Assembly (NCBI RefSeq): GCF_900176365.1
Contig: NZ_FWXY01000015.1
Location: 62,001-126,000, forward strand
Length of the DNA stretch: 64,000 bases
Source of the DNA: Desulfocicer vacuolatum DSM 3385
Lineage (GTDB): Bacteria > Desulfobacterota > Desulfobacteria > Desulfobacterales > Desulfobacteraceae
Reading direction: 5' to 3'
A program made the translations under genes and the position numbers. The notes beneath the pieces are model-generated. The model was not told where the DNA came from and made no database searches. It worked only from the letters and a program-made list of their open reading frames with translations. This document shows positions 31,141 to 49,964 of this stretch, in pieces; position 1 is the first letter of the stretch, and each line of letters begins with the position of its first letter.

Positions 31141-31297
31141 GCTAACTATCCTTTTCAAATTTTGTGCAACGTCAAATCTTAATTTTAGGATAACTGCTCC
31201 TGAACAGGGCAGAGCCACACTGGTCTGGAAGGTGTATCATCCTAAATCTTAGCTTTGACTATGCAGTAGTTTGTTTTAAACCTTTCATTTTCATCTA

Positions 31298-32201: not shown

Positions 32202-32262
32202 TGAAACTCCTTTTTATTCAAAATATCAATCCACTCTAAAACGCCCTGAATCAAGCCATTGT

Positions 32263-33273
32263 CTAAAAATTAACCACTGCTTTCAGGGATTCAGATACTT
32301 TTATCTGGGTCTCAAAGGCATCTTTAATATCGGCCAAGGGAAAGCGATGGGTGATCAGCGGTTTTCGATCGACTTTTTCCGAAGCCATGAGATCAATGGC
32401 GTCTTTGATATCATCCGGGGTATAGGCAAAAAGGCCGTGGATGTCTATGTTCTTGGTAACCAGTTGATTGACATCGACCTTGCAAGCCTTCTCGTAAAGC
32501 GCCACACACACCAATCGACCGGTCTGGGGTTTGGTGATTTCCAGGGCCTGGTTAAGGGTGATTTCCAGACCGGCACATTCAAAAACCATATCCACCTGGG
32601 CGCTGCTCTTAGCGTTATACAAAACACTTTCTTCCCCCTCGCCTTTCATCACTGCGACCACATCTTCATTGGCCACATTAATGGTGCGGTCGGCACCGAA
32701 GGTTTTGGCCATTTTCAGCCGTTTTTCGGACAGATCGCTGACAATTATCTCGCACTGGGGACAAAGAGCCTTTAACACCTGAATACAACCAAGTCCGATC
32801 ATACCTGCCCCGATAATCAATGCCTTTTCGCCGGGTTTCGGATCTGCCCGCCGAACAGCAGATAGTGAAACAGCCAAAGGTTCAGTGGTGGCGGCTTCTT
32901 CATAGCTGACATGATCCGGAAGCTTGAAAACCAGAGGGGCGCCTAAAAGTTCAGGTCCGCATCTACAGTACTCTGCGTATGCGCCAAAGGTTATGCCGGT
33001 TACACGATCACCGATTTGGATCCCTTCCAGATGGGCATCTGCTCCTATCTCTTCAACATTGCCGGCGAATTCGTGACCAAAGAGAACTCCATTATCAGCA
33101 GGGATGCTCATTTCTTTGAACATGCCGGTTTTATAGGTATGTAAATCGGTGCCGCAAATGCCTACTGTCTTGACCTGGATCAACACACCGTCTTGTCCGG
33201 CCGCGGCTTTGGGCATATCAATCACCCTCATATCCCGGTTTCCGTAAAATACAGCCCCTTTCATGAATGTCAT
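32263..33273 (-). CDS. Zinc-dependent alcohol dehydrogenase (MDR), 2,3-butanediol/threonine dehydrogenase-like
   Basis: This 336-residue medium-chain dehydrogenase has the catalytic zinc ligands in GICGTDLH and GHEFAG, the quinone-oxidoreductase-like middle EPLAVSLSAVRR and the cofactor fold IIGAGMIGLG followed by an acidic residue (VSDLSEKR), which suggests NAD. The structural zinc lobe is shortened: after GDRVTG the chain goes to AYAEYCRCG without the usual four spaced cysteines. ATG at 33273 has AGGAGG before it; the longer frame is not supported. It lies next to an acetoin-reductase-like SDR, suggesting vicinal diol or sugar-alcohol oxidation. Confidence 0.85.
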   Translation of the reverse strand: MTFMKGAVFYGNRDMRVIDMPKAAAGQDGVLIQVKTVGICGTDLHTYKTGMFKEMSIPADNGVLFGHEFAGNVEEIGADAHLEGIQIGDRVTGITFGAYAEYCRCGPELLGAPLVFKLPDHVSYEEAATTEPLAVSLSAVRRADPKPGEKALIIGAGMIGLGCIQVLKALCPQCEIIVSDLSEKRLKMAKTFGADRTINVANEDVVAVMKGEGEESVLYNAKSSAQVDMVFECAGLEITLNQALEITKPQTGRLVCVALYEKACKVDVNQLVTKNIDIHGLFAYTPDDIKDAIDLMASEKVDRKPLITHRFPLADIKDAFETQIKVSESLKAVVNF

Positions 33274-33492
33274 ATCGTCCTCCTGTGATCGTTTGTCAAT
33301 ATTCTTGATGGATTCGTTCATTTCTCATACCCCTGAAAACTTTTTTTCCACAATTGAAAGTCAAATACGCAAATATCAGACCATGCCGTCTTGCACACCA
33401 TAGAAGAGATGCCTGACAACAAAACGCGTTTTGTCGTCATATTCAACAGCCAACCTTTTAAATATGGCGGATAATTGATATTTAACAGCAAC

Positions 33493-34536
33493 TCATTTAG
33501 AATACCCCATTTGAGCACGAATTCGTTCAACATCTTCCGCCTCAGGGGGGAATGGGTAGTTTCGGATATCAGGGCCGGGCCGGGAGTTCCCAAATGGCCT
33601 GTTGCAGGCGACTTCACCGTCCCGTCCCTGGCACCCACTGGTACGGAACGCGTCACCGGCATGAATTATTTTTTCCAAGGTTGATTTATCAAGGCCGAAA
33701 TCAATCACCTGGTTCCGGCCGTTGAATGTAAACTGACTGGCTGTGACTTTCTTGCCATCAATAAGATAACGGGCAAGCTGGATTCTTCTGTACTGATCCA
33801 TGGGCGGCGGGTTGTGATCGGCCAAGGGGGAATCCGGCTCTGGATAAAAGGAAAACAAATGGGTACTGCACCCCATGTCACGGGACACCTGAATCACCTC
33901 ACACATTTCCTGTTCGGTTTCTCCCATTCCCACCATAAAGTGGGGCCCAGCATTATTCTCACCAAATACCTGAACAGCATCCGTCATACATTTCCAGTAC
34001 ACATCCCACCGGTGTGGCCCGCCAACGCCTCTGCCCCGATACCGATCAAAAAGCTCCTGGGTGGCCAAGTCAATGGCAATGCCCACTTTATCCACACCGG
34101 CCGCCTTGAGATCCTCAAGATCATTTTTTTTGATCAGGGTGGGGGCCAGAAGCACTGAAACAGGAACATTAAGTTTTGTCAGAAGCCGTTTGGAAATCTC
34201 AAGGGTGTGCTCCACAGCCCTGGCGTGGGTCACCATGGAGATGCAGAACCTTTTGACCCGATCCTTCCGTTCTTCTACTCTGTCAATGATATCTTCCAGG
34301 GGAAAAACGGGCCATTTCACGCGGATAAAGCTTTTGTCATCATAGTTTCCCGGCCGCTCTCCGGACAACCCGCAATATGCACAGCGTGCAGCACACCCAT
34401 CAGAATAGGTGAGAAGCAGATTTATGCAATATAGTCTGGCGTTCCGGTAAAACAGGCCGGGTTCATAACCCAGGGTCATGGCGGCGGCAAGACTGGTTTT
34501 AAGATATGCCGGGCTTTCTTTTATTTCAGTGCTCAA
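33493..34536 (-). CDS. Radical SAM protein, LipS2-like candidate
   Basis: This 347-residue protein has the radical SAM cluster motif CAARCAYC near residue 50, a glycine-rich SAM-binding region (VGIAIDLATQ), and a C-terminal cysteine pair region (TSGCQGRDGEVACNRPFG) that could hold an auxiliary cluster. It lies in a block that also has a second radical SAM gene, a LipT-like flavoprotein, a lipoate ligase and a lipoyl carrier, the gene set reported for the LipS1/LipS2 route of lipoate assembly. The assignment to LipS1/LipS2 rests on that context and overall likeness to biotin/lipoyl synthases. It lies 27 bases after an alkylsulfatase-like gene. Confidence 0.6.
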   Translation of the reverse strand: MSTEIKESPAYLKTSLAAAMTLGYEPGLFYRNARLYCINLLLTYSDGCAARCAYCGLSGERPGNYDDKSFIRVKWPVFPLEDIIDRVEERKDRVKRFCISMVTHARAVEHTLEISKRLLTKLNVPVSVLLAPTLIKKNDLEDLKAAGVDKVGIAIDLATQELFDRYRGRGVGGPHRWDVYWKCMTDAVQVFGENNAGPHFMVGMGETEQEMCEVIQVSRDMGCSTHLFSFYPEPDSPLADHNPPPMDQYRRIQLARYLIDGKKVTASQFTFNGRNQVIDFGLDKSTLEKIIHAGDAFRTSGCQGRDGEVACNRPFGNSRPGPDIRNYPFPPEAEDVERIRAQMGYSK

Positions 34537-34563
34537 TTTACTTTCCCCCTATGGATTCGATTC

Positions 34564-36384: not shown

Positions 36385-36433
36385 TTATATTGCCTTTTTC
36401 CTTAACGCCAGAGTAATAAGTTCCCATAACATC

Positions 36434-36490
36434 TTGAAATCATCATACCAAACCAAATGGATTTTCAAGACTTAAGCCCGATGATTTCAA
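36434..36490. repeat. Inverted repeat between the radical SAM and alkylsulfatase-like genes
   Basis: TTGAAATCATC and GATGATTTCAA (11 bases, exact) flank a 35-base loop. There is no T run on either side, so a terminator or attenuator role is open. Confidence 0.4.
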
Positions 36491-36553
36491 CGATTTATCC
36501 AAGATTAAAAGCAAACCATGGTGAGTACTTATGACTGACGAGTCCTTAATGAA

Positions 36554-37522
36554 TTATGTGGATTCCATATCTTGTCTCGCAACTTCAGTGCCAGACGTCA
36601 GCGCCATTACTGAACAACATGTGGGGTGATAGGAGATGCTCAGGCCGTACTCCTTTGCCAGGCAAACAGCTTCCTCAGAAGGGATGGCCATGCGATTGAC
36701 CCCTGCATCAATGGCCAGGGTTTCCATCAACCGATTGCCCCGTTCCCGGGCACATCCCAGCGATATTGGGGTTTTTGGCATGGCAAAGCGTGTATCTGCT
36801 ATTATTTCTGCCACCTCCTCGGCTTTTGGCATTTTCCATGATTTTTTCCACTCTGCGCCCAGGGCCATGACCGAAACAATAACAACCAGGGGCGTATTGA
36901 ACCGGGACACGATATTAATCGCTTCCCTCTCCCCCTTGATCCGGCCGTAATCCAGTCCACAAACGATATGGGGGATGATATCGATTCCTGCATTTGCCAG
37001 GGCTTCCAATGTGTTGACAATTTTGGATACCCCAAAGGGCAGGCCGTAAATCCGCTCATATGTTCCATCATCACCAATCACGTCAACCAAAGCCTGATCA
37101 ACACCGGCAGCTTTTAAACCCAGGGCCGAATCAGTATCTATGATGCCGCTGTGAACTGAAACAAAAAGTCCGGTCTCTTTTTTAATTGTTTCAATAGCCG
37201 GTGCAAACCGATCCCAGGGAAGCCGACCTTTGGCATCACAGCCGCCGCTGATCAGAATCCCGTGATTTCCCTTTTCGGCAAGGACCATTGCCTTTTCCAA
37301 CAATTTTGAAGGGCTCGTTGCCCCAATCATTGACTCAAGCAGTTTTCCTTTGCAATGATCGCATTGAAGCGAGCACGCTTTGCCGGTAATGGACATGGCC
37401 GGGTATTTCCCTGCCACCCCCTCATAATGAAACATCCCCGGAATATGGAACGAAATACTGGGCCCCAGGAATTTCCAGGACAGTTTCCTTGCAGATCTTA
37501 ATTTTTCAGTCAGATGTGGCAT
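36554..37522 (-). CDS. Radical SAM protein, LipS1-like candidate
   Basis: This 322-residue protein has the CxxxCxxC cluster motif CSLQCDHC near residue 55, GILISGGCDAKGRLPWD after it, and a C-terminal cysteine-rich end (SYHPTCCSV). The overall pattern is of the biotin/lipoyl synthase branch. The start at 37522 follows AAGGATTATC and overlaps the end of the flavoprotein gene by 17 bases, so the two are coupled. The frame is open further upstream inside the flavoprotein gene, but that part is only a shadow. Together with the radical SAM gene at 33493-34536 it fits the two-protein LipS1/LipS2 lipoyl synthase. The assignment is by context. Confidence 0.65.
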   Translation of the reverse strand: MPHLTEKLRSARKLSWKFLGPSISFHIPGMFHYEGVAGKYPAMSITGKACSLQCDHCKGKLLESMIGATSPSKLLEKAMVLAEKGNHGILISGGCDAKGRLPWDRFAPAIETIKKETGLFVSVHSGIIDTDSALGLKAAGVDQALVDVIGDDGTYERIYGLPFGVSKIVNTLEALANAGIDIIPHIVCGLDYGRIKGEREAINIVSRFNTPLVVIVSVMALGAEWKKSWKMPKAEEVAEIIADTRFAMPKTPISLGCARERGNRLMETLAIDAGVNRMAIPSEEAVCLAKEYGLSISYHPTCCSVMALTSGTEVARQDMEST

Positions 37523-38579
37523 GATAATCCTTAAAAGCGACCCAGCACCGTTCCATGATATCTTCCAGGCGGTTCCAGTTTTCTTCCATATAGACCCGAC
37601 GTGAATTGGCAAGAACAAGGGTGCGCTCAAATTGCCCCCGCCACTCTTTTTCATACTCGTTAAGCAGCCCGTTATCATCAGCCTTTACTGCCCGGGCCGC
37701 CCATTTGCCGGCCATTTTGCCGCAAATCACAGCCTGGGGAATACCGGCACCGGTAATGGCATGGGTCTGTCCGGCTGCATCCCCAACAAGCATCATATTG
37801 TCACGGACCACCTTTCTCGGCGGTCCCGCCGGTATCCATCCTGCGCAGGGTCTTCGTAGCCCCTCTGCGATTTTTCCCTCTTTGTCAAGTTCATGAATCA
37901 GATAATTCAGCATTTTCCCCAATTTACTTCGATTGCCGCGTGTGGTTGCAAGTCCGACATTGGCATACTTACCTTTGGGGAAAAACCATCCATAGCCACC
38001 GTAAAATAACGGATCAAAATAAATTTCCGTGGCATTTATCGGAGCATTCAGTTTAACCTGCTTTTGAATTCCGGCCATGAGATGTGTGTTCTGGGCCCCC
38101 ATCCACCGGGCTGTTATTGAAAGGGGGCCGTCAGCTCCGATAATAACCGACGGATTAATAATTTCTTCCGGCCCGTTTTTATGTTTTATGATGACAGCGC
38201 CTTTCTCCATCCGGATCACCCGGGCAGCGGTCAAAAGGTTTGCCCCGGCCTTTATAGCTGTTTTTGCCAACGACTGGTCAAAAAGGTCTCGGTGAATCAT
38301 ATATCCCAAAGCATCTGTCTTTTTCACAAGACGCCTGCGATAAAACGTTTTCATGGACCGGACGGTCTGAACAATAATATCCGGATCCAGATTGACTTCT
38401 CCGAGCAGCTGGGCAGGGATATACTCAGCACACTGAACAGGTTGCCCTATAATGGTGCGTTGATCAACCACCAGCACATCGGCACCGTTCACGGCAGCAG
38501 TCATGGCCGCAGAAGATCCGGCCGGTCCAGCACCGATGATCAGGATATCGCATACTTGTTTGCTAATCGAAGTCCCCAT
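37506..38579 (-). CDS. NAD(P)/FAD-dependent oxidoreductase, geranylgeranyl-reductase family (LipT-like)
   Basis: This 357-residue flavoprotein has the FAD-binding start DILIIGAGPAGSSAA, a PVQCAEYIP segment with a conserved Cys, the second dinucleotide-related motif IGADGPLS and the FAD-binding end LVGDAAGQTHAITGAGI. Members of this family placed beside lipS1/lipS2 and lipoate ligase genes have been named LipT and proposed to supply electrons for lipoate assembly. Here it lies between a lipoate ligase and a radical SAM gene, with a 17-base overlap into the latter. Function in lipoate assembly is therefore well supported by context, not by sequence alone. Confidence 0.72.
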   Translation of the reverse strand: MGTSISKQVCDILIIGAGPAGSSAAMTAAVNGADVLVVDQRTIIGQPVQCAEYIPAQLLGEVNLDPDIIVQTVRSMKTFYRRRLVKKTDALGYMIHRDLFDQSLAKTAIKAGANLLTAARVIRMEKGAVIIKHKNGPEEIINPSVIIGADGPLSITARWMGAQNTHLMAGIQKQVKLNAPINATEIYFDPLFYGGYGWFFPKGKYANVGLATTRGNRSKLGKMLNYLIHELDKEGKIAEGLRRPCAGWIPAGPPRKVVRDNMMLVGDAAGQTHAITGAGIPQAVICGKMAGKWAARAVKADDNGLLNEYEKEWRGQFERTLVLANSRRVYMEENWNRLEDIMERCWVAFKDYHATSD

Positions 38580-38658
38580 TTATCCTCTTCAATTTTGAAT
38601 TATTGCCTTGGAAGGCAGACATTTTAAAACATAGTTTAAAAGTTCATCTAACACACAT

Positions 38659-39765
38659 CTAATTGCAGTGCTCAAGGGGTATCCCGGATTTGGTGATGGA
38701 GATCTGCTCAAAGGCCAGCTCAAGGGGCTTGATAAAGTCCACGGCAGTCATACCGGGTATCCGGATTTTGCCTTGGTCGAAGAATTGGCAGATCTCTTGT
38801 TTGATATGTTCCCTGTCCAGGCGCATCCCCCTGAGCTGGGATTCAAGATCAAAAAGTGCACTGGATGGAAAAGAGAGAAAATCCCCTGTGATATAAATAT
38901 CTTTCAACCGCTGTTTGAGCAGATTCACCACCAGCGTAAGTCGAATAAGGCCGGCGCTGCATTTATAAATTCCCTGAAAGGCTTCACGTTTGTGATACTG
39001 GGGTTTGACCTGGTCTATCCAGCTTCTGGACTGATAATAGGGCAATTTTTTCTGAAAAAGCAGCTTTTCGTCATCTGTCAGCCCGCCAGCTACCAACTTG
39101 ATTTTCAGGTGCCTTTCAAAGCCACGACAGATAGCGGTCTTTATTTCCTCCGGTGTCGGCGTGTACCCCAGTTCCCACTTCAGGCAGGTGACCCGCTCTT
39201 TTACAGAATCAATTTCCTTGTCCCTTAATTTTTCCACCGGAATTTTAAGGCTTTTGAGCATGGTATCAACATCAAAATCTGTCAACAAAGAACCGTGGAA
39301 CAAAAAAGCGCCCTCGGATTCCGTGCCTCCGGTACCGGATATTTTCCTGCCGTTGATCTCAATATCGTTTCTGGGCCTGAAGCAGGCCCTCACACCGAGC
39401 ATGTCCAAGGCCGTGACAACCGGTTCGCAAAGTATGCTGAACAGTTTGTCCGTAACAAAGGACTGGTTAAAAAACTGTTTATCACAGATCACTTCCCATC
39501 CGATCTGACTTTCATCAAAAAAGATGGCTCCCCCACCGGTAATCCTGCGGTTGATCTCTATGCCTTTTTCACGGCAGTATCCAGTTCTGATCTCCTCTGA
39601 AACGGATTGATGAAAACCAACCAAAACGGAACGGGGTGCAAATTGAAGAAAATGCACTGTATTCGGCGATCGGCCTTTCCCCTTAAGCTCAAGCAGGGCG
39701 TCATCAAGAGCCATATTTTCGGCCGCCGTCATCGGGGGCGTATCGAGCAATCTCCATGTTTTCAT
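38659..39765 (-). CDS. Lipoate-protein ligase (catalytic plus accessory domain)
   Basis: This 368-residue enzyme attaches lipoate or octanoate to a carrier lysine using ATP. The catalytic domain shows RRITGGGAIFFD near residue 75 and NDIEINGRKISGTG near residue 130, which form the lipoyl-AMP site, including the usual lysine in GRKISG. The last 110 residues (from LIRLTLVVNLLKQRLKDIY) form the accessory domain found in full LplA or as separate LplB. It ends 19 bases upstream of nothing else on its strand than the carrier gene before it: the GcvH-like gene stops just ahead (18-base gap). The obvious partner is that carrier. Confidence 0.88.
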   Translation of the reverse strand: MKTWRLLDTPPMTAAENMALDDALLELKGKGRSPNTVHFLQFAPRSVLVGFHQSVSEEIRTGYCREKGIEINRRITGGGAIFFDESQIGWEVICDKQFFNQSFVTDKLFSILCEPVVTALDMLGVRACFRPRNDIEINGRKISGTGGTESEGAFLFHGSLLTDFDVDTMLKSLKIPVEKLRDKEIDSVKERVTCLKWELGYTPTPEEIKTAICRGFERHLKIKLVAGGLTDDEKLLFQKKLPYYQSRSWIDQVKPQYHKREAFQGIYKCSAGLIRLTLVVNLLKQRLKDIYITGDFLSFPSSALFDLESQLRGMRLDREHIKQEICQFFDQGKIRIPGMTAVDFIKPLELAFEQISITKSGIPLEHCN

Positions 39766-39783
39766 GCTTCAGCCCTCTTATCC

Positions 39784-40206
39784 CTATTCTTTTACAAATT
39801 TTTCTATTTCTTCGAGCATCCATGACTCTATGGCATCAGGTCCGTGAATCAGATTTTCCAATTCCCCCATATCGTTTGGTTGGATTTTAAACATCCAGCC
39901 CTTACCGTAACAGTCTTCGTTGATCAAGCCGGGGTTGACTTCAAGCTCCTGGTTGGATACTGCAATTTTACCATTCACCGGGGCATACACCTTGCCAAGC
40001 CATTTTCCCGATTCAACCTGGGAAAATTTTTTGCCTGCTTTCAACTTTTTACCTTCAAAGGGAAGCTGGACAAAAACAACTTCTCCTGCCATCTTCTGGG
40101 CAAAATCATTCATCCCCATCACCAAAAGATCCCCTTCAACCTTTACCCAGTAATGATTGGGTTCATAATATAACTCTTCGGGCAGTGTGTAATCTTTAAT
40201 TTCCAT
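39784..40206 (-). CDS. GcvH-like lipoyl carrier protein (LbpA-like)
   Basis: This 140-residue protein is a GcvH-fold carrier. The lipoylation lysine is K68 in VESGKWLGKVYAPVNG, matching the ES-x-K pattern of GcvH. The N-terminal part (HYWVKVEGDLLVMGMNDFAQ) also fits. No gcvP or gcvT gene is in the window, so glycine cleavage is unlikely for this copy. It is instead between a CCG iron-sulfur protein and a lipoate ligase. The same neighbourhood, carrier plus Hdr-type protein plus LipS/LipT/ligase, defines LbpA proteins of the sulfur-oxidising sHdr system. The name LbpA-like is given on that ground. Confidence 0.82.
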   Translation of the reverse strand: MEIKDYTLPEELYYEPNHYWVKVEGDLLVMGMNDFAQKMAGEVVFVQLPFEGKKLKAGKKFSQVESGKWLGKVYAPVNGKIAVSNQELEVNPGLINEDCYGKGWMFKIQPNDMGELENLIHGPDAIESWMLEEIEKFVKE

Positions 40207-40305
40207 GTTCCTCTCCTTTGTATCGGTTTAATAAACATCCAGATCATCTTGCACTATTTACGATAAAATTCCTGATCAGGTATCCCCCTGATTTTGAATC
40301 TTGGG

Positions 40306-41487
40306 TTAATCGGCAAGATTCTGTGCTATGAGTTCGGTGATATCCATAACATCCAAAGATACTTTGTTTCTTTTCACATAGGTATTAATAGTCCTGACAC
40401 ACTGCTGGCAGGCAGACAGCAGAACCGATGCACCTGTTTGCTCAATCTCGTCAACTTTTTGTTTTGCAATACCGCTGGAAAGGGCGGCGTCGATCATCTC
40501 AAGATTTCCACCACCGCCGCAGCATTGACAGGCGCTTTTGTTACGGGGCAGCTCTTTTAATCGGATGCCGGGAATCGCTTTGATCACATTCCTTGGCGCG
40601 TCATAAACGCCAGCCCCCCTTCCAAGGTCACAGGGATCGTGGTAGGTGACGGTAATATCCAGGCTGTTAATGGAAATTTTCTCCTCTTTGATCAGTTGCT
40701 CCATGTATTCCGTTACATGGTATAACTTGAATTCATCCGGATAATATTCCAACCACATCTGATAACAGGACGGACAGGCAAAAATCACCGTGTCAGCCCC
40801 TTTTTTTCTGATTGATTCAATATTGTGACGGATATACTTTCCAATGTGCTCTTTAAGACCAGCGCCGATCAGGGGAAAGCCGCAGCACCACTCCTCTTCA
40901 CCCAGCAGGGTAAAAGAGATACCCGCCTTGTCAAGAATCTTAACCGTGGCCATGGGTATTTTCTGGGCCATGGGAAAATAAGAGGAAACGCAGCCGGTAA
41001 AATAAACGACATCGGCACTCTCCCTGATATAACAGTCATCCGGGGCATCCTGCATATCCTCAACCCAGTCGGCCCGCTCCTCATTATCTTCATCAAAGAC
41101 ATTGTGACTCTCCCCAAGGTTGTCCCGAATCATGTTCACTTTTTCAGGGCAGGCATCCCTTTGAACAAGATGTTCCCTGAGGGATATCCACAACTCTTTT
41201 AATTCAATTCCGGCAGGACAAACCTCCTGGCATTTGCCGCACAGCGTACACCGGTAGACTGTATCTGCAAATTCCGTCAAGGCTTCGCTGGTCAATGCAT
41301 TATTTTTATACAACCATTTAAGTGGACCATTTTCCGATCGAAAAATTTTTTTCAACTGATCAAGACGGTAAACGCCGGATAGGCAGATCTCATTGCTTGA
41401 CAATACTGCCGGGCAGATCTCGGCGCATTGCAAACAACCGGTACAGGCTTCCATCTGTAATTTTTCTTTGATATTAAAGTGTGCCAC
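40306..41487 (-). CDS. Iron-sulfur CCG-domain protein, HdrD/DsrK/TmcB-like
   Basis: This 393-residue cytoplasmic protein begins with two [4Fe-4S] motifs, CTGCLQCAEICP and CTLCGKCQEVCP, followed by two CCG domains: GCVSS...EEWCCGFP...CPSC and DPCDLG...CQCCGGGG...CQQC. In HdrB/HdrD and DsrK such domains hold the noncubane or special cluster that reduces or oxidises disulfides. It lies between the multihaem/b-type cytochrome gene (gap about 120 bases, containing an R1 copy) and the lipoyl carrier gene. A thiol-disulfide reaction with the carrier's lipoyl group, with electrons exchanged with the cytochrome, is the natural hypothesis. Confidence 0.85.
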   Translation of the reverse strand: MAHFNIKEKLQMEACTGCLQCAEICPAVLSSNEICLSGVYRLDQLKKIFRSENGPLKWLYKNNALTSEALTEFADTVYRCTLCGKCQEVCPAGIELKELWISLREHLVQRDACPEKVNMIRDNLGESHNVFDEDNEERADWVEDMQDAPDDCYIRESADVVYFTGCVSSYFPMAQKIPMATVKILDKAGISFTLLGEEEWCCGFPLIGAGLKEHIGKYIRHNIESIRKKGADTVIFACPSCYQMWLEYYPDEFKLYHVTEYMEQLIKEEKISINSLDITVTYHDPCDLGRGAGVYDAPRNVIKAIPGIRLKELPRNKSACQCCGGGGNLEMIDAALSSGIAKQKVDEIEQTGASVLLSACQQCVRTINTYVKRNKVSLDVMDITELIAQNLAD

Positions 41488-41519
41488 AGCAATTATTCTC
41501 TTTTTTATGATACGTTATT

Positions 41520-41615
41520 CATATGAACCATGTTTAAAACCAACGGGTGACTTTCATGCCCTGCCGGGGAAAGAATCCGGGTAAAAGCAACCCGGCCTGC
41601 CCATGGCGGTTATTG
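41520..41615 (+). repeat. R1 dispersed repeat, diverged copy overlapping the cytochrome stop codon
   Basis: CATATGAACCATG at the left and TGCCCATGGCGGTTATTG at the right match the two ends of R1; the middle is diverged. The TAA stop of the minus-strand cytochrome gene (41610-41612) lies within the right end motif. Confidence 0.5.
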
Positions 41616-43346
41616 GGGCGGCCGCCTGTTATGACCCTTTTTTGAATTTGCAGTGATGGCCAGGGCCAGCGGCACCAAAACAATGTGGCGCAGACGGCTG
41701 AAGGGAAGATATACCACCAAGCATCCTGTAAGAATTGCATGGGCATACCATATCCAGCCATAGATTACGGTAAAATCGACATCTGGGAGTATCCAGCCGA
41801 TGAAATACCCGACCAATGCATATTCGGCACCTGGAGGACTCCCGGTCATGGCAATACGTAATCCCTCCAAAACAAAACCGACAACGATCAGACCACCAAG
41901 GAGAATAAACGCTGGCCAATCAAGCTTTGGAAAACCATCAAAGTTGATATGTTTCATTTTTGAATGCTTTAGAAAAACAAAAAGAATCAACCCGAGGAGC
42001 ATCATGCACCCGGTCACATCAAATACCAATGCCGTTATACTGTCATTTTTGTTCAGCATAAAAGAGAGGCCACCCCATTGAGATTCCCATGAAGATGCTG
42101 CAAGGGCAAAAAGCCCCCAGAAAAACCGGAATAGAAAGGCATGGAAAATCAGGCTGTGAATCATCCATCTGGCTCTGGATCTCAAAAAGAGGCGGCGTTG
42201 AAAAAGCCCTTCAACAATCATCACTTTGATCATATCCTTGATTCCGGAACCTTTGGTGTGCCCATGGTCCTGTTGCCCTTGTTGCCCGGCAAGCCGGGAG
42301 CCGGTAAACAAATAAGTACCCAGAACCGCAATACCCAATGCAAAAAGAATGAGCGTTATCATTGAAACCGTATCCTCTACAGACAGCGTTGCTGAATGGC
42401 AAGGCATGCAAAAAACCCCTTTTGCAGGAAGAATATGTGCAGCGGCGCCCACTGAGTTTCCACGAAAATGGCATCGACTGCAGGATGTTTCATCGTCGGG
42501 CAAAGCCATATGATGCACCTGGGTTTCTGACGATTTAACTGTTTTTCCCAAGATTTGACCTGTTAAACCGTCCCTGACGGCCCATGCGCCTTCAAGGTGG
42601 CAGGCCTCGCAGGAAACCGTTACGTGGGGGTCACGGATTGTTTTTTTATTATGGGATAGATGGCATGTTTTACAATCTGCTGTGGGTTGCCCGGCATGGT
42701 TGAACCCGGCAGAAAAGGGATGACAAGTCAGGCAGGACATTTCAGAATGGGGCGTGGAGGAATAGGCCGGGACGTCAATAACCGGATGATGCCCTGTTTT
42801 ACCGTCCGTTCCATGACAATAAAAACAGAGATCCTGAACCATGGCCGCCCTTTTATCGGTTCCCTTGATCGGAATCAAATGACATTCTGCACAGACCGCC
42901 TCTTGTGCAGCAACCGGGGGAAGATCCGTCTGGACTTCATGACAAACGGCACATTTTTCAGAGACAGGCGCTGAAAAATCTATATTTTCACTGCCGGATG
43001 ACATTGTGGTATGGGGATCATGACACTGGATACAGCTGCTGTCCTCTTTGGACACTTTACCTGTCCCATTTCCGTGGTTCCCGCTTTCCAGTTCTTCCAG
43101 AGCACTGTCATGACAGTCAACACACTGTTCAACATTAAAAAAGGCATGGACTGTTTTATTAACACTTCCCGGGTCAGGATGGTCACCGGTGCCGGTTTTG
43201 TCTTGATGGCACTCCAGGCAGTCCATCTGCCCATGAACCGAAGTATGAAATCTTTCATGGTCAATTAACCAAGATGCCGAAACCTCCAAGGAGGGGATAA
43301 TGAAAAACGCACCTAACAGTGCAATGGATGTGATGAACCGTCTCAT
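41610..43346 (-). CDS. Multihaem cytochrome c fused to a NarI/DsrM-like cytochrome b domain
   Basis: This 578-residue protein has a signal sequence (residues 1-24), then eleven CxxCH haem-c motifs (for example CLECH, CVDCH, CIQCH, CAVCH, CAECH, CFYCH, CLTCH, CKTCH, CEACH, CSRCH, CMPCH) in the periplasmic half, followed from about residue 330 by a membrane part with five or six helices and histidines typical of the NarI/DsrM gamma-type cytochrome b (HSLIFHAFLFRFFW, WYAHAILTG). It could pass electrons between the quinone pool and periplasmic haems, and to the adjacent CCG protein. The fusion recalls Tmc, Hmc or DsrMJ complexes with the c and b parts joined. The C-terminus ends within an R1 repeat. 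Confidence 0.85.
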   Translation of the reverse strand: MRRFITSIALLGAFFIIPSLEVSASWLIDHERFHTSVHGQMDCLECHQDKTGTGDHPDPGSVNKTVHAFFNVEQCVDCHDSALEELESGNHGNGTGKVSKEDSSCIQCHDPHTTMSSGSENIDFSAPVSEKCAVCHEVQTDLPPVAAQEAVCAECHLIPIKGTDKRAAMVQDLCFYCHGTDGKTGHHPVIDVPAYSSTPHSEMSCLTCHPFSAGFNHAGQPTADCKTCHLSHNKKTIRDPHVTVSCEACHLEGAWAVRDGLTGQILGKTVKSSETQVHHMALPDDETSCSRCHFRGNSVGAAAHILPAKGVFCMPCHSATLSVEDTVSMITLILFALGIAVLGTYLFTGSRLAGQQGQQDHGHTKGSGIKDMIKVMIVEGLFQRRLFLRSRARWMIHSLIFHAFLFRFFWGLFALAASSWESQWGGLSFMLNKNDSITALVFDVTGCMMLLGLILFVFLKHSKMKHINFDGFPKLDWPAFILLGGLIVVGFVLEGLRIAMTGSPPGAEYALVGYFIGWILPDVDFTVIYGWIWYAHAILTGCLVVYLPFSRLRHIVLVPLALAITANSKKGHNRRPPQ

Positions 43347-43599
43347 AGTTAAAATTCTGCCTATTTCGCGTTTTTGATATAAGAACCTTTAAAACCGCAC
43401 TGGCGTTTTTATCTCTGGTACAGGCATAACCCAGGATATATGCCAGGCCTGTGTGGCTATGCCGAAGGACCTATCAGAGGTTAAAAATCCAGTTTATGCT
43501 CTTTTTATCAACCGGGGTGCTGTCTCGAACACCCTTCCGGGTATGTGGCCGTCATGAACCCCGGTTTAATAAAAGAGAGGCTTTTTCAGTAATTGTCGA

Positions 43600-44571
43600 C
43601 TATTCCAAAATAGCTTTAATCGCCTCAACAATCCTATTTTCGCTGGGTATATACTCTGCTTCAAGTCCGGCTGCAAAAGGAACAGGACAAAACGGTGCAG
43701 CAACGCGTTTAATGGGTGCGTCAAGGTAATCAAACGCCTTTTCTGCAACCATAGCCGCGATTTCAGCACCGGATCCAGCAAACGCAACCTCTTCGTGTAC
43801 GATTACCAGTCGCTGGGTCTTTTTTACCGATGTGAGGATCGCCTCTTCATCAAGGGGAAGAAGGCTCCTTGGATCAAGAACTTCAACACTGACGCCGTCT
43901 GAAGCCATTTTTTCGGCCACCATCAGCGCTTTACCGACCATCTGACCTGTTGCCACAACAGTGACATCCGAACCTTCCCGCTTGATGTCAGCTTTTCCAA
44001 TGGGTATGGTGTACGCTTCTGTCGGCACCTCCCCCTCTGATGCATAGAGAGCCTTGTTTTCCAGAAATACAACCGGATTGTCATCCTGGATGGCTGAGGC
44101 CAAAAGACCCTTTGCATCGTAAGGCGTGCTGGGGTACACCACCTTCAAACCGGGAATATGCATGAACCAGGCTTCCAGTGACTGGGAGTGCTGTGCAGCA
44201 GCACCGACCCCGCCACCGGTTGCAGCTCTCAATACCAGCGGAATTTTGACTTTACCACCGAACATATAACGCATTTTTGCTGCCTGGTTGAACAATTGAT
44301 CCATGCAGACCCCGATAAAATCCACGAACATCAGTTCAACAACAGGTCTGCAGCCCACGGCAGCAGCACCTACGGCAGCACCAAGATACCCACCTTCCGA
44401 AATCGGGGTATCCAGAACCCGGTTCTCTCCAAACCGATCCTTTAAGCCTCCGGTTACACCTAAAACCCCACCGGCACAGTTGTCTATACCTAAAACAAGC
44501 ACATCCGGATCCCGTTCCATTTCAAGCACGATGGTCTGATTAATAGCCTCGGCTAATTTCATAGTTGCCAT
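43600..44571 (-). CDS. 2-oxoacid/acetoin dehydrogenase E1 component, beta subunit
   Basis: This 323-residue protein is the transketolase-fold beta subunit of a thiamine-diphosphate E1 enzyme. It has the family start MKLAEAINQTIVLEMERDP, the DTPISEGGYLGAAVGAA segment with the ThDP-activating Glu, and the C-terminal HEEVAFAGSGAEIAA. ATG at 44571 is chosen because GAAAGGAAGG precedes it. It follows the alpha subunit gene by about 85 bases. With AcoA-like alpha it most resembles acetoin dehydrogenase; branched-chain or pyruvate dehydrogenase activity is possible. A 253-base gap without a gene separates it from the cytochrome gene. Confidence 0.88.
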   Translation of the reverse strand: MATMKLAEAINQTIVLEMERDPDVLVLGIDNCAGGVLGVTGGLKDRFGENRVLDTPISEGGYLGAAVGAAAVGCRPVVELMFVDFIGVCMDQLFNQAAKMRYMFGGKVKIPLVLRAATGGGVGAAAQHSQSLEAWFMHIPGLKVVYPSTPYDAKGLLASAIQDDNPVVFLENKALYASEGEVPTEAYTIPIGKADIKREGSDVTVVATGQMVGKALMVAEKMASDGVSVEVLDPRSLLPLDEEAILTSVKKTQRLVIVHEEVAFAGSGAEIAAMVAEKAFDYLDAPIKRVAAPFCPVPFAAGLEAEYIPSENRIVEAIKAILE

Positions 44572-44657
44572 TGATTTGTCCTTCCTTTCATTCATTCACG
44601 CACGCACACGGCGCTTGTGGAATTTGTAAGTTTGAGCAAAACTAAACGAACCGTCTG

Positions 44658-45623
44658 TTATGCATACACATCCTTCATAAGCTCGGAAATATCAGGGGCA
44701 GGACTCTCTTTTGCATACTCAACCGCTTTTTCAATTTCATCCTGAATCTCTTGTCTGATACTGTCCAGGGTATTCTGATCAGCGATGTCTTCATCCAACA
44801 GTCTCTTTTCGAATCTCAAAATAGGATCTTTATCCGCGCTCTGCCATGATGCCCTTTCCTCTTCGGACCTGTATGTTTCCGGGTCACCAACATAATGCCC
44901 CTTGATGCGATAGGTATTGCATTCGATCATGGTCGGCCCCTTTCCCTCCCTGGCACTTTTTACGGCCTCCTGGGTGGCCTCATAGACAGCCAGGACATCA
45001 TTTCCGTCCACAACCACACTGGGGATGCGATACCCTTCAGCACGTTCGGAAACCAACCTGCAGCATTGATGATCGGCCTGATGTGTAAACTCTGCAAAAC
45101 AATTGTTTTCTATGACAAAAATGACCGGCAGCTTCCAAATGGAAGCAAGGTTTAGCGCTTCATGCACGGTTCCCTGGTTGGAGGCACCGTCTCCGAAAAA
45201 ACTGACACTGACATTATCGTTGCCCTTATATTTAGATGCCAAACCAGCCCCGACAGCGATTGGCGGTCCGGCGCCGACAATACCGTTGGCGCCAAGTATT
45301 CCCAGTTCCAGATCCGCAATGTGCATGGATCCACCCTTACCCTTGCAATAGCCGGTTTTTTTTGCAAACAGCTCGGCCATCATCAAATCGGTTTTTCCCC
45401 CTTTGGCAATCAGGTGGCCGTGACCGCGGTGAGTACTGGTAATGTAATCTGAAATCTTAAGCGCGGAACACACACCCGTTGCAACAGCCTCCTCACCAAT
45501 GTACAGGTGAACAAAACCCGAGATGTTTCCGGTCAGAACAAGCTCCTCCAGTTTCTCCTCAAATTTTCTGATACGCAACATGGTTGCGAACATGCCAACC
45601 TTTTCTTCATTGGAAAGATTCAT
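44658..45623 (-). CDS. 2-oxoacid/acetoin dehydrogenase E1 component, alpha subunit
   Basis: This 321-residue protein carries the thiamine diphosphate motif GDGASNQGTVHEALNLA...IENN and the substrate-side segment THRGHGHLIAKG and GGSMHIADLELGILGANGIV. These match the AcoA type, which together with AcoB cleaves acetoin to acetaldehyde and acetyl-CoA with the E2/E3 subunits. The neighbouring E2, E3, lipA and lipB genes make a full complex. The nearby BudC-like SDR and zinc dehydrogenase also fit acetoin or butanediol metabolism. The exact substrate is not fixed by sequence. Confidence 0.88.
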   Translation of the reverse strand: MNLSNEEKVGMFATMLRIRKFEEKLEELVLTGNISGFVHLYIGEEAVATGVCSALKISDYITSTHRGHGHLIAKGGKTDLMMAELFAKKTGYCKGKGGSMHIADLELGILGANGIVGAGPPIAVGAGLASKYKGNDNVSVSFFGDGASNQGTVHEALNLASIWKLPVIFVIENNCFAEFTHQADHQCCRLVSERAEGYRIPSVVVDGNDVLAVYEATQEAVKSAREGKGPTMIECNTYRIKGHYVGDPETYRSEEERASWQSADKDPILRFEKRLLDEDIADQNTLDSIRQEIQDEIEKAVEYAKESPAPDISELMKDVYA

Positions 45624-45691
45624 TAACGTAACCTCTCTTTCTGTTTTAAGTGATTCAGAAGTTCTCTCCTGAACCCGTATTAAATTTTATT

Positions 45692-46534
45692 TCAGGCCAT
45701 GGTATGTGCCAGATATGAGCTTCTTACCAATGGTCCCGACATAACGCCTTTAAACCCCATCTCCAGGGCAATGGTTTCCCAGTCTTGAAATTCCTCGGGG
45801 GAAACATACCGGTCAATGGGAAAATGGTGATCCGACGGGGCCAGATACTGCCCCAGGGTCAGGTGGGTGCATCCGACCCGCTTAAGATCTTTCAACACCC
45901 TGTGCACCTCTTTTTTTGTTTCACCCAGCCCCAGCATCAACCCCGACTTTACCGGAACTCTGTACCAGGTAGCATAGGCAAGTACGGACAAAGAACGCCG
46001 GTAAATCGCTTGGGGTCTTACCGATTCATACAGACGGGGCACGGTTTCAATATTGTGATTGAACATATCCGGCCGGGCGTTCAGGACTGTTTTTAACGAT
46101 GCCAGGGATCCTTTAAAATCCGGAACCAGCACTTCTATTTTCGTGCCCGGACAATGGATGCGTACCTGCTCCAGGGTGTGTGCAAACTGGGCTGCGCCAC
46201 CATCGGGAAGATCGTCCCGCGTTACCGAAGTAACCACAACAAATTTGAGGCCAAGTGTTTTAACCGTTTCGGCTATCCGTTCCGGCTCAAGAGGATCTAT
46301 TTGCGAGGGTGCCCCCGTATCCACAGTGCAGAACCGGCAGTTCCTGGTGCATTGTGTTCCAAGTATCATGAAGGTGGCTGTACCGCGGCTGAAACACTCG
46401 CCTAAATTGGGACAATGAGCACTTTGGCATACGGTTGCCAGACATGCACTGTTGAGCATGGATTCCATTTTCTCGATGGATGCCTCATCATAGGCCTTCC
46501 GGACCAACCAATGGGGATGACGGGTTCCGTTCAT
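45692..46534 (-). CDS. lipA: Lipoyl synthase
   Basis: This 280-residue radical SAM enzyme inserts two sulfurs into octanoyl groups on carrier proteins. Both clusters are visible: the auxiliary one in CQSAHCPNLGEC, and the SAM cluster CTRNCRFC. The C-terminal RSSY motif is present as VRSSYLAH. It overlaps the lipB stop by ATGA. Sitting within the E1/E2/E3 genes, it most likely serves the E2 lipoyl domain of that complex. It is a canonical LipA, unlike the LipS-like pair further on. Confidence 0.95.
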   Translation of the reverse strand: MNGTRHPHWLVRKAYDEASIEKMESMLNSACLATVCQSAHCPNLGECFSRGTATFMILGTQCTRNCRFCTVDTGAPSQIDPLEPERIAETVKTLGLKFVVVTSVTRDDLPDGGAAQFAHTLEQVRIHCPGTKIEVLVPDFKGSLASLKTVLNARPDMFNHNIETVPRLYESVRPQAIYRRSLSVLAYATWYRVPVKSGLMLGLGETKKEVHRVLKDLKRVGCTHLTLGQYLAPSDHHFPIDRYVSPEEFQDWETIALEMGFKGVMSGPLVRSSYLAHTMA

Positions 46535-47217
46535 CGTGCCGCCTGCCTTTCTGAATTATGATCGCAAAAATACTCAAACCTACAGGAAAATTGCCTGATA
46601 AACTCCAGCTTTACCTGTTCAATATCCAGTGGGTGACCGAGGATATTGGCCATGGAGATCATTTTCTGATTCGGGTGACCACACGGGACAATGCAATTGA
46701 ACGAGGATGGATCATTATTTACATTCAATGCAATGCCGTGATACGTCACCCATTGGGAGACAGCGATACCGACACTCATTATTTTGGCATCACCGACATA
46801 CAGACCCGGTTTTCCAGTCTGTTTTTCCGAGTCAATGCCAAATACCCCAAGGGTTGCCTTAACCGAACCAAGCAATTTCTCAAGGTAGGCATGGAGATCT
46901 TGATTTTTCAACTTGACTATGGGGTAGGCAACCAATTGTCCCGGCCCATGGTAGGTTGCTTTACCGCCGCGATCCACATAAACAGTATCAATTCCTCTCA
47001 TCTTGAGTTCTGATTCAGGCAGACACAAATCCGCAGTGCTTCCGCTTCGTCCCAAGGTCACCGTGGGGAAATGTTCCGTCAGTATCAGGCAATCCCCTGA
47101 TTTTTCAGCGGCCCTGCCAGCGGCCAGTTCTTTCTGGTATTTGAACGCCTCTGCATAGGCAGTCATTCCCAGATCACGGATATCCAAGCTGCAACTACGG
47201 TTTCTGCTCATCTCCAT
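46531..47217 (-). CDS. lipB: Lipoyl(octanoyl) transferase
   Basis: This 228-residue enzyme moves octanoate from acyl carrier protein to the lipoyl domain lysine. It shows the family motifs RGGKATYHGPGQLVAYP, the catalytic lysine in VGDAKIMSVG and the catalytic cysteine in IVPCGHP. It starts 7 bases after the E2 stop, and its end overlaps lipA by ATGA. With lipA it forms the classical endogenous lipoylation route. Confidence 0.94.
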   Translation of the reverse strand: MEMSRNRSCSLDIRDLGMTAYAEAFKYQKELAAGRAAEKSGDCLILTEHFPTVTLGRSGSTADLCLPESELKMRGIDTVYVDRGGKATYHGPGQLVAYPIVKLKNQDLHAYLEKLLGSVKATLGVFGIDSEKQTGKPGLYVGDAKIMSVGIAVSQWVTYHGIALNVNNDPSSFNCIVPCGHPNQKMISMANILGHPLDIEQVKLEFIRQFSCRFEYFCDHNSERQAAR

Positions 47218-47223
47218 ACCCTC

Positions 47224-48543
47224 TTAGCTCATAATTAAATACGGATTCTGTAAATACCGGCCCACATGGGCAAGAAAAGCATGGGCAGGGGCACCGTCAA
47301 CAACGCAGTGATCGTAGGTCAAACTGAGAACCATCATCCAGCGCAATGCAATTTCCCCTTTGTGCTCTGCAGGCTTTCTTTTTACCCGGCCAACCCCCAG
47401 GATGCCGGTTTCCGGCGGACGCAGGATCGGCGTAAAACCGTCGACCTCTATCATGCTTGTATTTGAAATCGTAAATGTTCCCCCTGAGATATCGTCCATA
47501 TCAAGGGTGTTTTCCCTGGCTTTTTTTGCCAATCGCCTGGCTTCGGCTGCGATCTCGATCAGCCCCTTTTGGTTGGCTTTCTGAAGCACAGGTACGATTA
47601 GACCCTCTTTCACAGCCACGGCGATTCCCATGTTCGTGTCATGATGAAAAGTGATCTCTTCTTCATCACGGGTCGAGTTCATGATCGGGTGATGCTTCAA
47701 AGCCCGTGAAACAGCAAGAACGATGATGTCATTATACGAGATCTTGATTGTTGCATCTTTTTTATGTTCCTCTCGAACCTGCTCAAGGAACCGCACCATT
47801 TCTGTAACATCAACCTCAGTGAAACAGGTAAGCTGGGCTGCATTCTGAAGACTGGCAAGCATATTGTCGCCAATGGCTTTGCGCATACCTGAATACGCCA
47901 TTGCCGTCTCGGCCGGAGAAACGGCTTCAGGTGCCTGGGCCACTGGCGCATCGGACGCACCGGCAAGGGCCTTTTCAATATCTTCCCTGGTGATCTTACC
48001 GCCATCACCTGTACCGCTCAATTCCGAAATATCAATCCCCCCTTTGTCTGCCATTGACTTTGCAAGGGGGGTGATTTTGGGCAGTCTGGACAATGTTTTT
48101 TGATACTCTTGAATATCCTTTTCGGTAATCCGTCCACCCGGGCCGCTTCCCTTGACCAAAGTCAGATCAACGCCAAGATCCTTTGCAACCCGTTTGGCTG
48201 CCGGGCTTGCTTTAATTGGTCCTGCCGGTTTCGCTGGTGCGGACTCCCCCCCACAAACGGCTGTAGATCCGGCTCCGCCAGCTTCCACACGCTCAAGCTG
48301 TTCGCCTTCATCGGCAATAAGGGCAACGACAGATTTTACAGGGACGCTCTCTCCCACCGGCACAAGGATCTGGAACAGCGTTCCGCTTGTAATGGATTCA
48401 ACCGTATTGGTGATTTTTTCTGTTTCGACTTCAAAAAGTTCATCACCCTTTTCAACCTGATCCCCTTCATTTTTTATCCATTTAGTGATTTTGCCCTTTT
48501 TCATCGTCATACCCCATTTGGGCATTTTGACTTCTGTAGCCAT
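47224..48543 (-). CDS. Dihydrolipoamide acyltransferase (E2), one lipoyl and two peripheral-binding domains
   Basis: This 439-residue protein has a lipoyl domain at residues 1-80 with Lys43 in ETEKITNTVES, then two peripheral subunit-binding domains (about 112-148, SPAAKRVAKDLGV...GRITEKDI, and about 157-193, TPLAKSMADKGGI...GKITREDI), then the acyltransferase core with the active-site motif YDHCVVDGAPA near the end. It transfers the acyl group from E1 to CoA. Two binding domains in tandem after a single lipoyl domain are less common than one. It lies between the E3 and lipB genes. Confidence 0.92.
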   Translation of the reverse strand: MATEVKMPKWGMTMKKGKITKWIKNEGDQVEKGDELFEVETEKITNTVESITSGTLFQILVPVGESVPVKSVVALIADEGEQLERVEAGGAGSTAVCGGESAPAKPAGPIKASPAAKRVAKDLGVDLTLVKGSGPGGRITEKDIQEYQKTLSRLPKITPLAKSMADKGGIDISELSGTGDGGKITREDIEKALAGASDAPVAQAPEAVSPAETAMAYSGMRKAIGDNMLASLQNAAQLTCFTEVDVTEMVRFLEQVREEHKKDATIKISYNDIIVLAVSRALKHHPIMNSTRDEEEITFHHDTNMGIAVAVKEGLIVPVLQKANQKGLIEIAAEARRLAKKARENTLDMDDISGGTFTISNTSMIEVDGFTPILRPPETGILGVGRVKRKPAEHKGEIALRWMMVLSLTYDHCVVDGAPAHAFLAHVGRYLQNPYLIMS

Positions 48544-48614: not shown

Positions 48615-49964
48615 TTATATATCCATCCCGCGGCTTGCCAGAACTACAGCCTCCGAAAATGTTGGATGGACCCTCATGCTTTTGGCAAATTCCTGAACTG
48701 TTGCTTCAAGTTGCATGGCCAATACCGCTTCCCCGATCAATTCCGTTGCCTGGGAGCCGATAATGTGAACCCCGAGAATTTCCCCATGGGTTGCATCTGC
48801 AACTATTTTAACGGCACCTTCCTGTTCATTTCTGCACATGGCAAGCCCGTTCATTGAATAAGGAAAGCTTGCAACCTCAACCTCATACCCTTCCTTTTCC
48901 GCCTCTTCTTCTGAAAGCCCGACTGCACCCAGTTCCGGAATCGTCCAGATTCCTCTGGGAACAAGGTTAAACGGAAACTTGTGGTGTTCTCCCATGGCGT
49001 TTTTTGCGGCAACCAAGCCCATGGCTGAGGCAGCATGACTCAACATCCAACCGCCAGTGACATCGCCGATGGCATAAACATTTTTGACTGAAGTTTCGAG
49101 GTGATCATTCACTTTGATTCCTCCTTCGTCATTCAAATCAATTCCTGCGTCACAGAGCCCCATAGCCTCCACGCGTGGTTTTCTGGAACAGACGAGAATG
49201 CGGGTTGCCTCAATTATTATATCCTTGGCACCGGAAAAGGAAAAAATGAAATCGTCATCTTTTTTTTCAACCGAGGCCAGGGTGGCCCTGGCAACTATAT
49301 TTACACCCTGTTCCTTTAATACCTGGCTAATTCTCTGGCTTGTTTCGTGATCTTCTTTCTCAAGTATCCTTGCTCCCTGAAATGCCAGGGTAACACGGGT
49401 ACCCAGTGCACTCAGCAACCCTGCTTCTTCGACCTCAATATATCCTGCACCGTAAATTAGAACTGAATCGGGAAGTTTCTCCATTTCAAGGACATCATCT
49501 GTGGTGATGGCCGCCTCTTTTACTCCTGCAACATCTGGAAAAGAGAGAGTACTGCCTGTTGCGAAAATAATTTTCCCGGCGGTATAGACAATACCGTCAA
49601 CGTCGACCTCCAAAGGTTTTTTAAAAATCGCCTTTCCTTTAATTATGTCAACGCCGCTGCCTTCCAACGTGGCTTCCATGCCCTTTCTGATGTCACTGGA
49701 TATGCCCTTCTTTCGGTCAATAACCGTTTTCAGGTCGATCTTTTTTTCAGATACGCTGATTCCAAAGGCCTCACCTTCATTGATGTCAGTCCATATTTTT
49801 GTAGCTTTGTGCCATACTTTGGACGGGATACACCCCTTGTTAACGCAGGTTCCACCGAATTCTTCAGCTTCCACAATCGCTGTTTTGCCTTCAAGCTGAG
49901 AACACAGGAGAGCAGCTTCATATCCACCCGATCCGCACCCGACAATAATCACGTCGTAATCCAT
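48615..49964 (-). CDS. lpdA: Dihydrolipoamide dehydrogenase (E3)
   Basis: This 449-residue flavoprotein reoxidises dihydrolipoamide with NAD. It has the FAD motif VIIVGCGSGGYEAALL, the redox-active disulfide GGTCVNKGCIPSK, a second dinucleotide fold whose motif (YGAGYIEVEEAG) is slightly altered from GxGxxGxE, and the C-terminal histidine/glutamate in HPTFSEAV. It is the first gene of the 2-oxoacid dehydrogenase unit. It could also serve the GcvH-like carrier. Confidence 0.92.
   Translation of the reverse strand: MDYDVIIVGCGSGGYEAALLCSQLEGKTAIVEAEEFGGTCVNKGCIPSKVWHKATKIWTDINEGEAFGISVSEKKIDLKTVIDRKKGISSDIRKGMEATLEGSGVDIIKGKAIFKKPLEVDVDGIVYTAGKIIFATGSTLSFPDVAGVKEAAITTDDVLEMEKLPDSVLIYGAGYIEVEEAGLLSALGTRVTLAFQGARILEKEDHETSQRISQVLKEQGVNIVARATLASVEKKDDDFIFSFSGAKDIIIEATRILVCSRKPRVEAMGLCDAGIDLNDEGGIKVNDHLETSVKNVYAIGDVTGGWMLSHAASAMGLVAAKNAMGEHHKFPFNLVPRGIWTIPELGAVGLSEEEAEKEGYEVEVASFPYSMNGLAMCRNEQEGAVKIVADATHGEILGVHIIGSQATELIGEAVLAMQLEATVQEFAKSMRVHPTFSEAVVLASRGMDI

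Follow-up and report, generated by a model that had tools for sequence, protein, structure and literature searches.

What would a lipoyl carrier protein do when no partner from glycine cleavage is encoded beside it? The question is raised by a stretch of 64,000 nucleotides (nt) from Desulfocicer vacuolatum DSM 3385 (contig NZ_FWXY01000015.1, positions 62,001 to 126,000; 'the window' below, numbered from its first letter), in which consecutive genes encode a membrane cytochrome, an iron-sulfur protein with two CCG (noncubane cluster) modules, here called the CCG protein, and a GcvH-like lipoyl carrier. A preliminary description of this locus had reported the three genes in a row and proposed that they form a lipoate counterpart of DsrC/DsrMK; all three are indeed open reading frames on the minus strand, in the order just given (Table 1). 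Our analysis suggests, with a probability of roughly 0.6, that they make up a lipoyl-carrier-linked membrane electron-transfer unit, a dihydrolipoyl-carrier:quinone/cytochrome oxidoreductase whose direction of flow we can only infer. We regard the unit as well supported and its mechanism as moderately supported; the three genes stay together in many sulfate reducers and related bacteria, and their products are probably a new path for electrons from the breakdown of food to the cell envelope.

Conservation of the three genes across genomes

The three-gene unit is real and conserved, a conclusion that is well supported, and its members are near-obligate partners across Desulfobacterota. Among 389 genomes of the class, searched with the CCG protein and with a carrier profile, a strong CCG match was found in 41 and the carrier in 36 (E below 1e-66), together with two weak carrier matches; the carrier matches cover 27 genera. 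The two subfamilies occur together in 35 genomes (Fisher p about 2e-42, a value that ignores kinship). Gene neighbourhoods were compared in a sample of 40 places and 80 named contigs, from which duplicates were removed before counting. Relatives on contigs were found with an alignment as the query, while the single CCG protein of the window found none. Among the named contigs are Dethiosulfatarculus, Desulfocarbo, Desulfovibrio, Desulfosarcina, Desulfobacula and Syntrophaceae, with an Anaerolineales and an Actinomycetota metagenome-assembled genome at lower identity. In 68 of the 72 distinct loci with enough upstream sequence, the carrier and CCG genes share a strand and lie no more than 5 kb apart, and two of the four loci without a nearby carrier (G358 and G368) have one elsewhere in the genome. 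The preliminary description had staked its proposal on the genes being neighbours in related genomes, and this expectation holds.

A cytochrome gene is found nearby in 54 of 64 loci. Of the ten loci without one, five or more encode a NarI-like protein free of haem after the CCG gene, and the membrane partner in loci of the Syntrophaceae type, about 280 residues long, is also haem-free. Because such haem-free partners occur, we take the constant core to be the carrier, the CCG protein and a NarI-like membrane protein, with the c-haems an addition. Of 67 loci, 47 have a lipoate ligase gene no more than 3 kb away, usually of a 349-residue type only about 30% identical to the LplA of the window. 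Most often the genes run cytochrome, carrier, CCG protein, lipoate ligase, an order from which the window departs in having the carrier and the CCG protein exchanged.

The 84 distinct loci fall into two contexts that never coincide: 30 have GlcD/GlcF, 26 have the E1/E2/E3 genes of a dehydrogenase complex, none has both and 28 have neither (partly owing to contig ends). GlcD/GlcF loci often include a lactate racemase-like LarA, and in one case a lactate-permease-like gene; an AcoX-like protein encoded in several E1/E2/E3 loci points to acetoin. Alternation of this kind would be expected of a shuttle that gathers electrons from different dehydrogenases, and it leaves the reductant unspecified. 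In some genomes (L061, L062, L138, L139) the unit adjoins a second operon, GlcD2/GlcE2/GlcF2, whose GlcF2 is closely paralogous to the CCG protein (about 46%). No account of the carrier/CCG/cytochrome combination was found in a literature search covering open-licence papers, and to the extent of our checks the unit is undescribed.

The carrier, the CCG protein and the cytochrome

The carrier matches the lipoyl-domain family of GcvH, and its predicted lipoyl-lysine, K68, is invariant across 25 alignment rows. The surrounding motif separates it from the glycine-cleavage protein: the lysine is followed by tryptophan in 79 of 82 unit-locus sequences (mostly ESGKW), whereas all 29 GcvH sequences read VKA (ESVKA). 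In a tree of 111 sequences, one branch with 99/98 support splits all unit carriers from the GcvH set, which consisted of the best PF01597 matches of related genomes, with gcvP adjacency confirmed for the host's own genome only. Neither GcvP nor GcvT is encoded next to the carrier, as the preliminary description had noted, and the concern that a gcvP elsewhere might rely on this carrier can be set aside, as another GcvH stands beside two GcvP matches on a different contig of the same genome (C63). Judged by its own clade and its own motif, the carrier is not the glycine-cleavage protein, and our reading offers a function for a GcvH-like group that annotation pipelines would name glycine cleavage protein H. 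K68 would be lipoylated by the neighbouring ligase, as the protein families predict. The only cysteine of the carrier, C99, was considered as a unit-specific residue and dropped, since GcvH controls carry it too. Separate from the unit, proteins of about 300 residues with a weaker GcvH-like domain are encoded in several relatives as tandem pairs (loci G000:C49:104473; G009:C112:6592 and 7540; G023:C22:107824 and 108759; G002:C189).

The CCG protein contains two ferredoxin-type CxxCxxCxxxCP motifs and two full CCG modules (CX34CCX35CXXC and CX35CCX36CXXC) with all the cysteines of heterodisulfide reductase (Hdr). The two [4Fe-4S] and two CCG motifs of the preliminary description therefore stand, but its label of a DsrK/HdrD-like protein needs to be shifted, as the protein is nearer to TfrB, GlcF and EtfD than to DsrK. 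Its structure model (predicted local distance difference test, pLDDT, 86.6) matches EtfD of Mycobacterium smegmatis best among solved structures (9ojn, TMq 0.80), followed by LutA and HdrB. The best NCBIfam match is TfrB, subunit B of thiol:fumarate reductase, at 191 bits (below the equivalog cut-off of 385), with weaker matches to TmcB (92 bits) and HmcF (63 bits). The DsrK model NF045796 gives 103 bits against a cut-off of 400, and we rejected a DsrK identity; the host genome encodes a genuine DsrK (721 bits, contig C25) as well as DsrA on other contigs. TfrB oxidises two thiols to a disulfide; the CCG protein lacks a fumarate reductase partner and has a membrane partner instead.

The comparison with EtfD, an electron-transfer flavoprotein (ETF):menaquinone oxidoreductase, turns on the first CCG site, which in EtfD is altered, with Thr539 in place of a cysteine and His583 as a ligand (PMC13083937). 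In a HMMER alignment these two residues correspond to Cys202 and Ser240 of the CCG protein. Both are conserved in its subfamily, of which 69 of 73 members are identical at all twelve positions checked, and with the Hdr-type residues kept at these positions the Hdr-type active site is intact. The CCG protein thus looks EtfD-like in build and heterodisulfide-reductase-like at its active site.

The cytochrome has a signal or anchor sequence, exactly 11 CxxCH motifs and a membrane domain with five predicted transmembrane helices, so that the eleven haem motifs and NarI-like domain described earlier are confirmed, with a closer solved fold: the membrane domain of EtfD (Z 11.2 over 234 residues, 5.1 Å) ranks ahead of NarI (Z 6.8). 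NarI uses four histidines for two b-haems. The domain studied here conserves three, H397, H536 and H554, and the fourth ligand position, assigned by spacing ten residues after H397, is an invariant Arg407, which is consistent with a single b-haem, as in EtfD. Membership of the cytochrome in the NarI family was considered and not adopted. The mean pLDDT of the whole-cytochrome model is 61.3, and we claim no fold for its c-haem part, where confidence is low. Taken over two genes, the five-helix membrane domain, two ferredoxin domains and two CCG domains reproduce the architecture of EtfD/EMO; in two loci (L080 and L082) the membrane domain and the CCG protein are fused in one polypeptide next to the carrier gene, which makes a CCG-membrane complex very likely.

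By the tests that we ran, the unit appears to belong to none of the systems that it recalls, namely DsrC-DsrMK, Tmc, sHdr-LbpA or EtfD. It resembles DsrC with DsrMK(JOP), as well as Tmc and Hmc, in pairing a cytoplasmic dithiol/disulfide protein with a two-CCG protein, a NarI-like membrane cytochrome and periplasmic c-haems, but the carrier would use a lipoyl group rather than protein cysteines, and c-haems and b-type domain share one polypeptide here. The proposal of the preliminary description is supported by the ESGKW carrier clade, the nearby ligases and the intact Hdr-type CCG sites, and the membrane-CCG fusions support a physical complex. As an analogy the DsrMK comparison is apt, but the nearest solved architecture is that of EtfD and the nearest family model TfrB. 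The sHdr-LbpA systems likewise combine a GcvH-like carrier, CCG proteins and the assembly genes LipS1, LipS2, LplA and LipT, but the present locus has no recognised sHdr set, a membrane cytochrome in place of soluble sHdrABC, and a dehydrogenase context. The ETF:menaquinone oxidoreductases EtfD, EMO and FadF share the folds of the CCG protein and the membrane domain; the unit differs from them in its intact Hdr-type cysteines, its two genes, its added c-haems and its near-obligate lipoyl carrier. The degenerate first CCG site (a Thr for Cys and a His ligand in EtfD; FadF and DgcB lack it) is absent here.

A proposed electron route and its alternatives

Based on these features we can outline how the unit might work. 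In D. vacuolatum, Lys68 of the carrier would be lipoylated either by the neighbouring LplA together with LipS1, LipS2 and LipT, a published lipoate assembly route (PMC10332631), or by LipB and LipA. The resulting dithiol/disulfide would carry electrons in pairs through the cytoplasm, and the carrier would receive them from whichever dehydrogenase is encoded next to it: in the window an E1/E2/E3 acetoin or pyruvate dehydrogenase, and in other genomes perhaps a GlcD/GlcF hydroxyacid dehydrogenase. E3 can reduce lipoyl domains. The CCG protein would oxidise (or reduce) the carrier's lipoyl group at its two Hdr-type noncubane clusters, from which electrons, by a wire that we model on EtfD, may pass to the two cubane [4Fe-4S] clusters, then to the b-haem in the membrane domain and on to menaquinone and/or the periplasmic c-haems. 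The reaction of the carrier with the CCG protein, the role of dihydrolipoyl-carrier as donor and the outward direction of flow are all proposals.

The known roles of lipoate are that of a swinging arm in carbon-metabolising complexes and, since 2018, that of a partner in sHdr sulfur oxidation. If our proposal is true, the link between a lipoyl protein and a membrane cytochrome adds the role of a respiratory electron carrier, and gives sulfate reducers and syntrophs a route from the oxidation of acetoin, pyruvate or lactate to quinone or periplasmic cytochromes. More broadly, and tentatively, at somewhat less than even odds, protein-bound lipoate could be a dedicated respiratory carrier, with various dehydrogenases reducing one lipoyl protein that is reoxidised by an Hdr-like membrane cytochrome, possibly bypassing NADH and reaching periplasmic or extracellular acceptors. 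The proposal is open to a simple knockout or spectroscopic assay.

Several points weigh against this proposal. GlcF-like proteins without a tie to the carrier, among them all 13 GlcF2 proteins compared, also keep intact CCG sites, so the CCG motif permits disulfide chemistry but does not prove it. The two sulfurs of a lipoyl group, unlike coenzymes M and B in HdrB, may fail to reach both clusters simultaneously. As the locus has its own E3, the carrier is not needed merely to reoxidise the dehydrogenase complex. The energetics are mixed: a lipoyl potential of about -290 mV fits E3/NADH and the periplasmic c3 cytochromes, but it lies below that of pyruvate/lactate (about -190 mV), so that in GlcD-type loci the step from lactate to carrier would be uphill, except with a carrier held in its oxidised state or a different flow.

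Four alternatives have to be weighed, which we take in falling order of likelihood. The unit could operate in reverse, with periplasmic cytochromes or menaquinol reducing the carrier through the CCG protein, after which E3 would form NADH or the carrier would supply reducing power elsewhere. The periplasmic c3 pool of sulfate reducers, near -300 mV, matches lipoyl, and the Hmc and Tmc complexes, whose CCG subunits are among the recognised relatives given above, are thought to move electrons inward. Reoxidation of LbpA by E3 with formation of NADH has also been proposed (PMC6067878). We nevertheless think this reading unlikely, as the neighbouring genes encode oxidative dehydrogenases that already yield NADH or reduced lipoyl, and haem-free variants of the unit offer no periplasmic entry.

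It is also unlikely that the carrier is only an intermediate of lipoate assembly that gives its lipoyl group to E2, with the CCG protein and the cytochrome forming a separate respiratory unit. In the LipM/LipL relay of Bacillus subtilis, GcvH is such an intermediate, and the carrier sits among LplA, LipT, LipS1, LipS2, LipA and LipB next to E2, with a ligase often adjacent elsewhere. However, 30 of the 56 classified loci are of the GlcD/GlcF type, with no E1/E2 nearby to lipoylate, LipS1/LipS2 were seen in just 13 of 84 distinct loci (as clustered) against a near-constant CCG partner, and the true GcvH of the genome could serve the purpose.

A reading in which the CCG protein joins the cytochrome in an ETF:quinone oxidoreductase of the EtfD/EMO/FadF type, with the carrier a mere neighbour, we consider quite improbable, even though M. 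smegmatis EtfD heads the solved matches of the CCG protein as well as those of the membrane domain and relatives show the same overall architecture in fused form. The EtfD signature, threonine for the second cysteine of the CC pair plus the histidine ligand, is replaced by Hdr-type residues in the CCG subfamily, and the degenerate site with its histidine occurs instead in three other CCG paralogues of the host genome (open frames of 682-706 residues). Neighbour clustering, in which not all unnamed clusters were identified, revealed no evident EtfAB pair among the recurring families, and the carrier co-occurs with the CCG protein in nearly all genomes. Finally, an sHdr-type LbpA that moves sulfur rather than electrons is very improbable: the carrier, its CCG partner and LipS1/LipS2/LplA/LipT recall the sHdr clusters (PMC10332631; PMC6067878), but a typical LbpA identity was rejected, as the carrier lacks the pair of cysteines, near the N- and C-terminus, that is strictly conserved in bacterial LbpA (PMC6067878), C99 is shared with GcvH, shdrC1B1AC2B2 neighbours are absent and no sHdrA, DsrE or TusA was recognisable among the identified island neighbours.

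The surrounding lipoate and dehydrogenase genes

The three-gene frame of the preliminary description, sound in itself, proved too small: the unit is embedded in a larger minus-strand block with ten further lipoate and acetoin/pyruvate-dehydrogenase-like genes (Table 1), LplA to LipS2-like downstream and E1 beta to E3 upstream. Intergenic gaps measure 122 nt between the cytochrome and CCG genes, 99 nt between the CCG and carrier genes, and 18 nt between the carrier gene and lplA. Since their scores fall slightly under the NCBIfam cut-offs, LipS1 and LipS2 are labelled '-like'.

Table 1. Genes of the unit and of the surrounding block, in window coordinates
Feature	Position	Strand	Basis or remark
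LipS2-like lipoyl synthase half	33493..34536	(-)	NF053743 217 bits, cut-off 270
LipS1-like lipoyl synthase half	36554..37678	(-)	NF053742 206.5 bits, cut-off 230
LipT-like FAD oxidoreductase (geranylgeranyl-reductase family)	37506..38579	(-)	TIGR02032 199 bits; LipT role from PMC10332631
LplA lipoate-protein ligase (catalytic and C-terminal domain)	38659..39765	(-)	PF21948 166 bits, PF10437 25 bits
GcvH-like lipoyl carrier, 140 residues	39784..40206	(-)	PF01597 GCV_H 129 bits; predicted lipoyl-lysine K68 in ESGKW
CCG protein, 393 residues	40306..41487	(-)	Two [4Fe-4S] ferredoxin motifs, two complete CCG modules
Membrane cytochrome, 578 residues	41610..43346	(-)	Signal/anchor, 11 CxxCH, then five-helix NarI/EtfD-like domain
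E1 beta, pyruvate/acetoin dehydrogenase-like (candidate electron source)	43600..44595	(-)	PRK09212 383 bits
E1 alpha, pyruvate/acetoin dehydrogenase-like	44658..45623	(-)	TIGR03182 380 bits, cut-off 394
LipA lipoyl synthase	45692..46534	(-)	TIGR00510 361 bits, cut-off 310
LipB octanoyltransferase	46531..47217	(-)	TIGR00214 136 bits, cut-off 84
E2 dihydrolipoyl acyltransferase	47224..48543	(-)	TIGR01349 303 bits
E3 dihydrolipoyl dehydrogenase (candidate NAD(H)-carrier link)	48615..49964	(-)	TIGR01350 408.8 bits, at cut-off

LipB/LipA on the one hand and LplA/LipS1/LipS2/LipT on the other give the genome two lipoate assembly routes that both look complete, inside 14 kb (window 33493-47217). The LipS1-like and LipT-like frames overlap by 173 nt, and because of this overlap and a LipS1 model match that begins only at residue 90, the true start of LipS1 is probably downstream of the start of the open frame. 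An Rfam scan of the window from 30 to 52 kb gave no match, nor did a PADLOC scan; promoter-like sites numbered 37 against 25.0 expected (standard deviation 5.1) and were not used in the analysis. Two alkylsulfatase-like metallo-beta-lactamase proteins are encoded inside or beside the lipoate island (window 29323-31218 and 34564-36384), the second of them between the LipS2-like and LipS1-like genes. The far end of the island (window 31428-33321) holds genes for an acetoin reductase/butanediol dehydrogenase-like short-chain dehydrogenase/reductase and a zinc alcohol dehydrogenase, in line with the use of acetoin or 2,3-butanediol.

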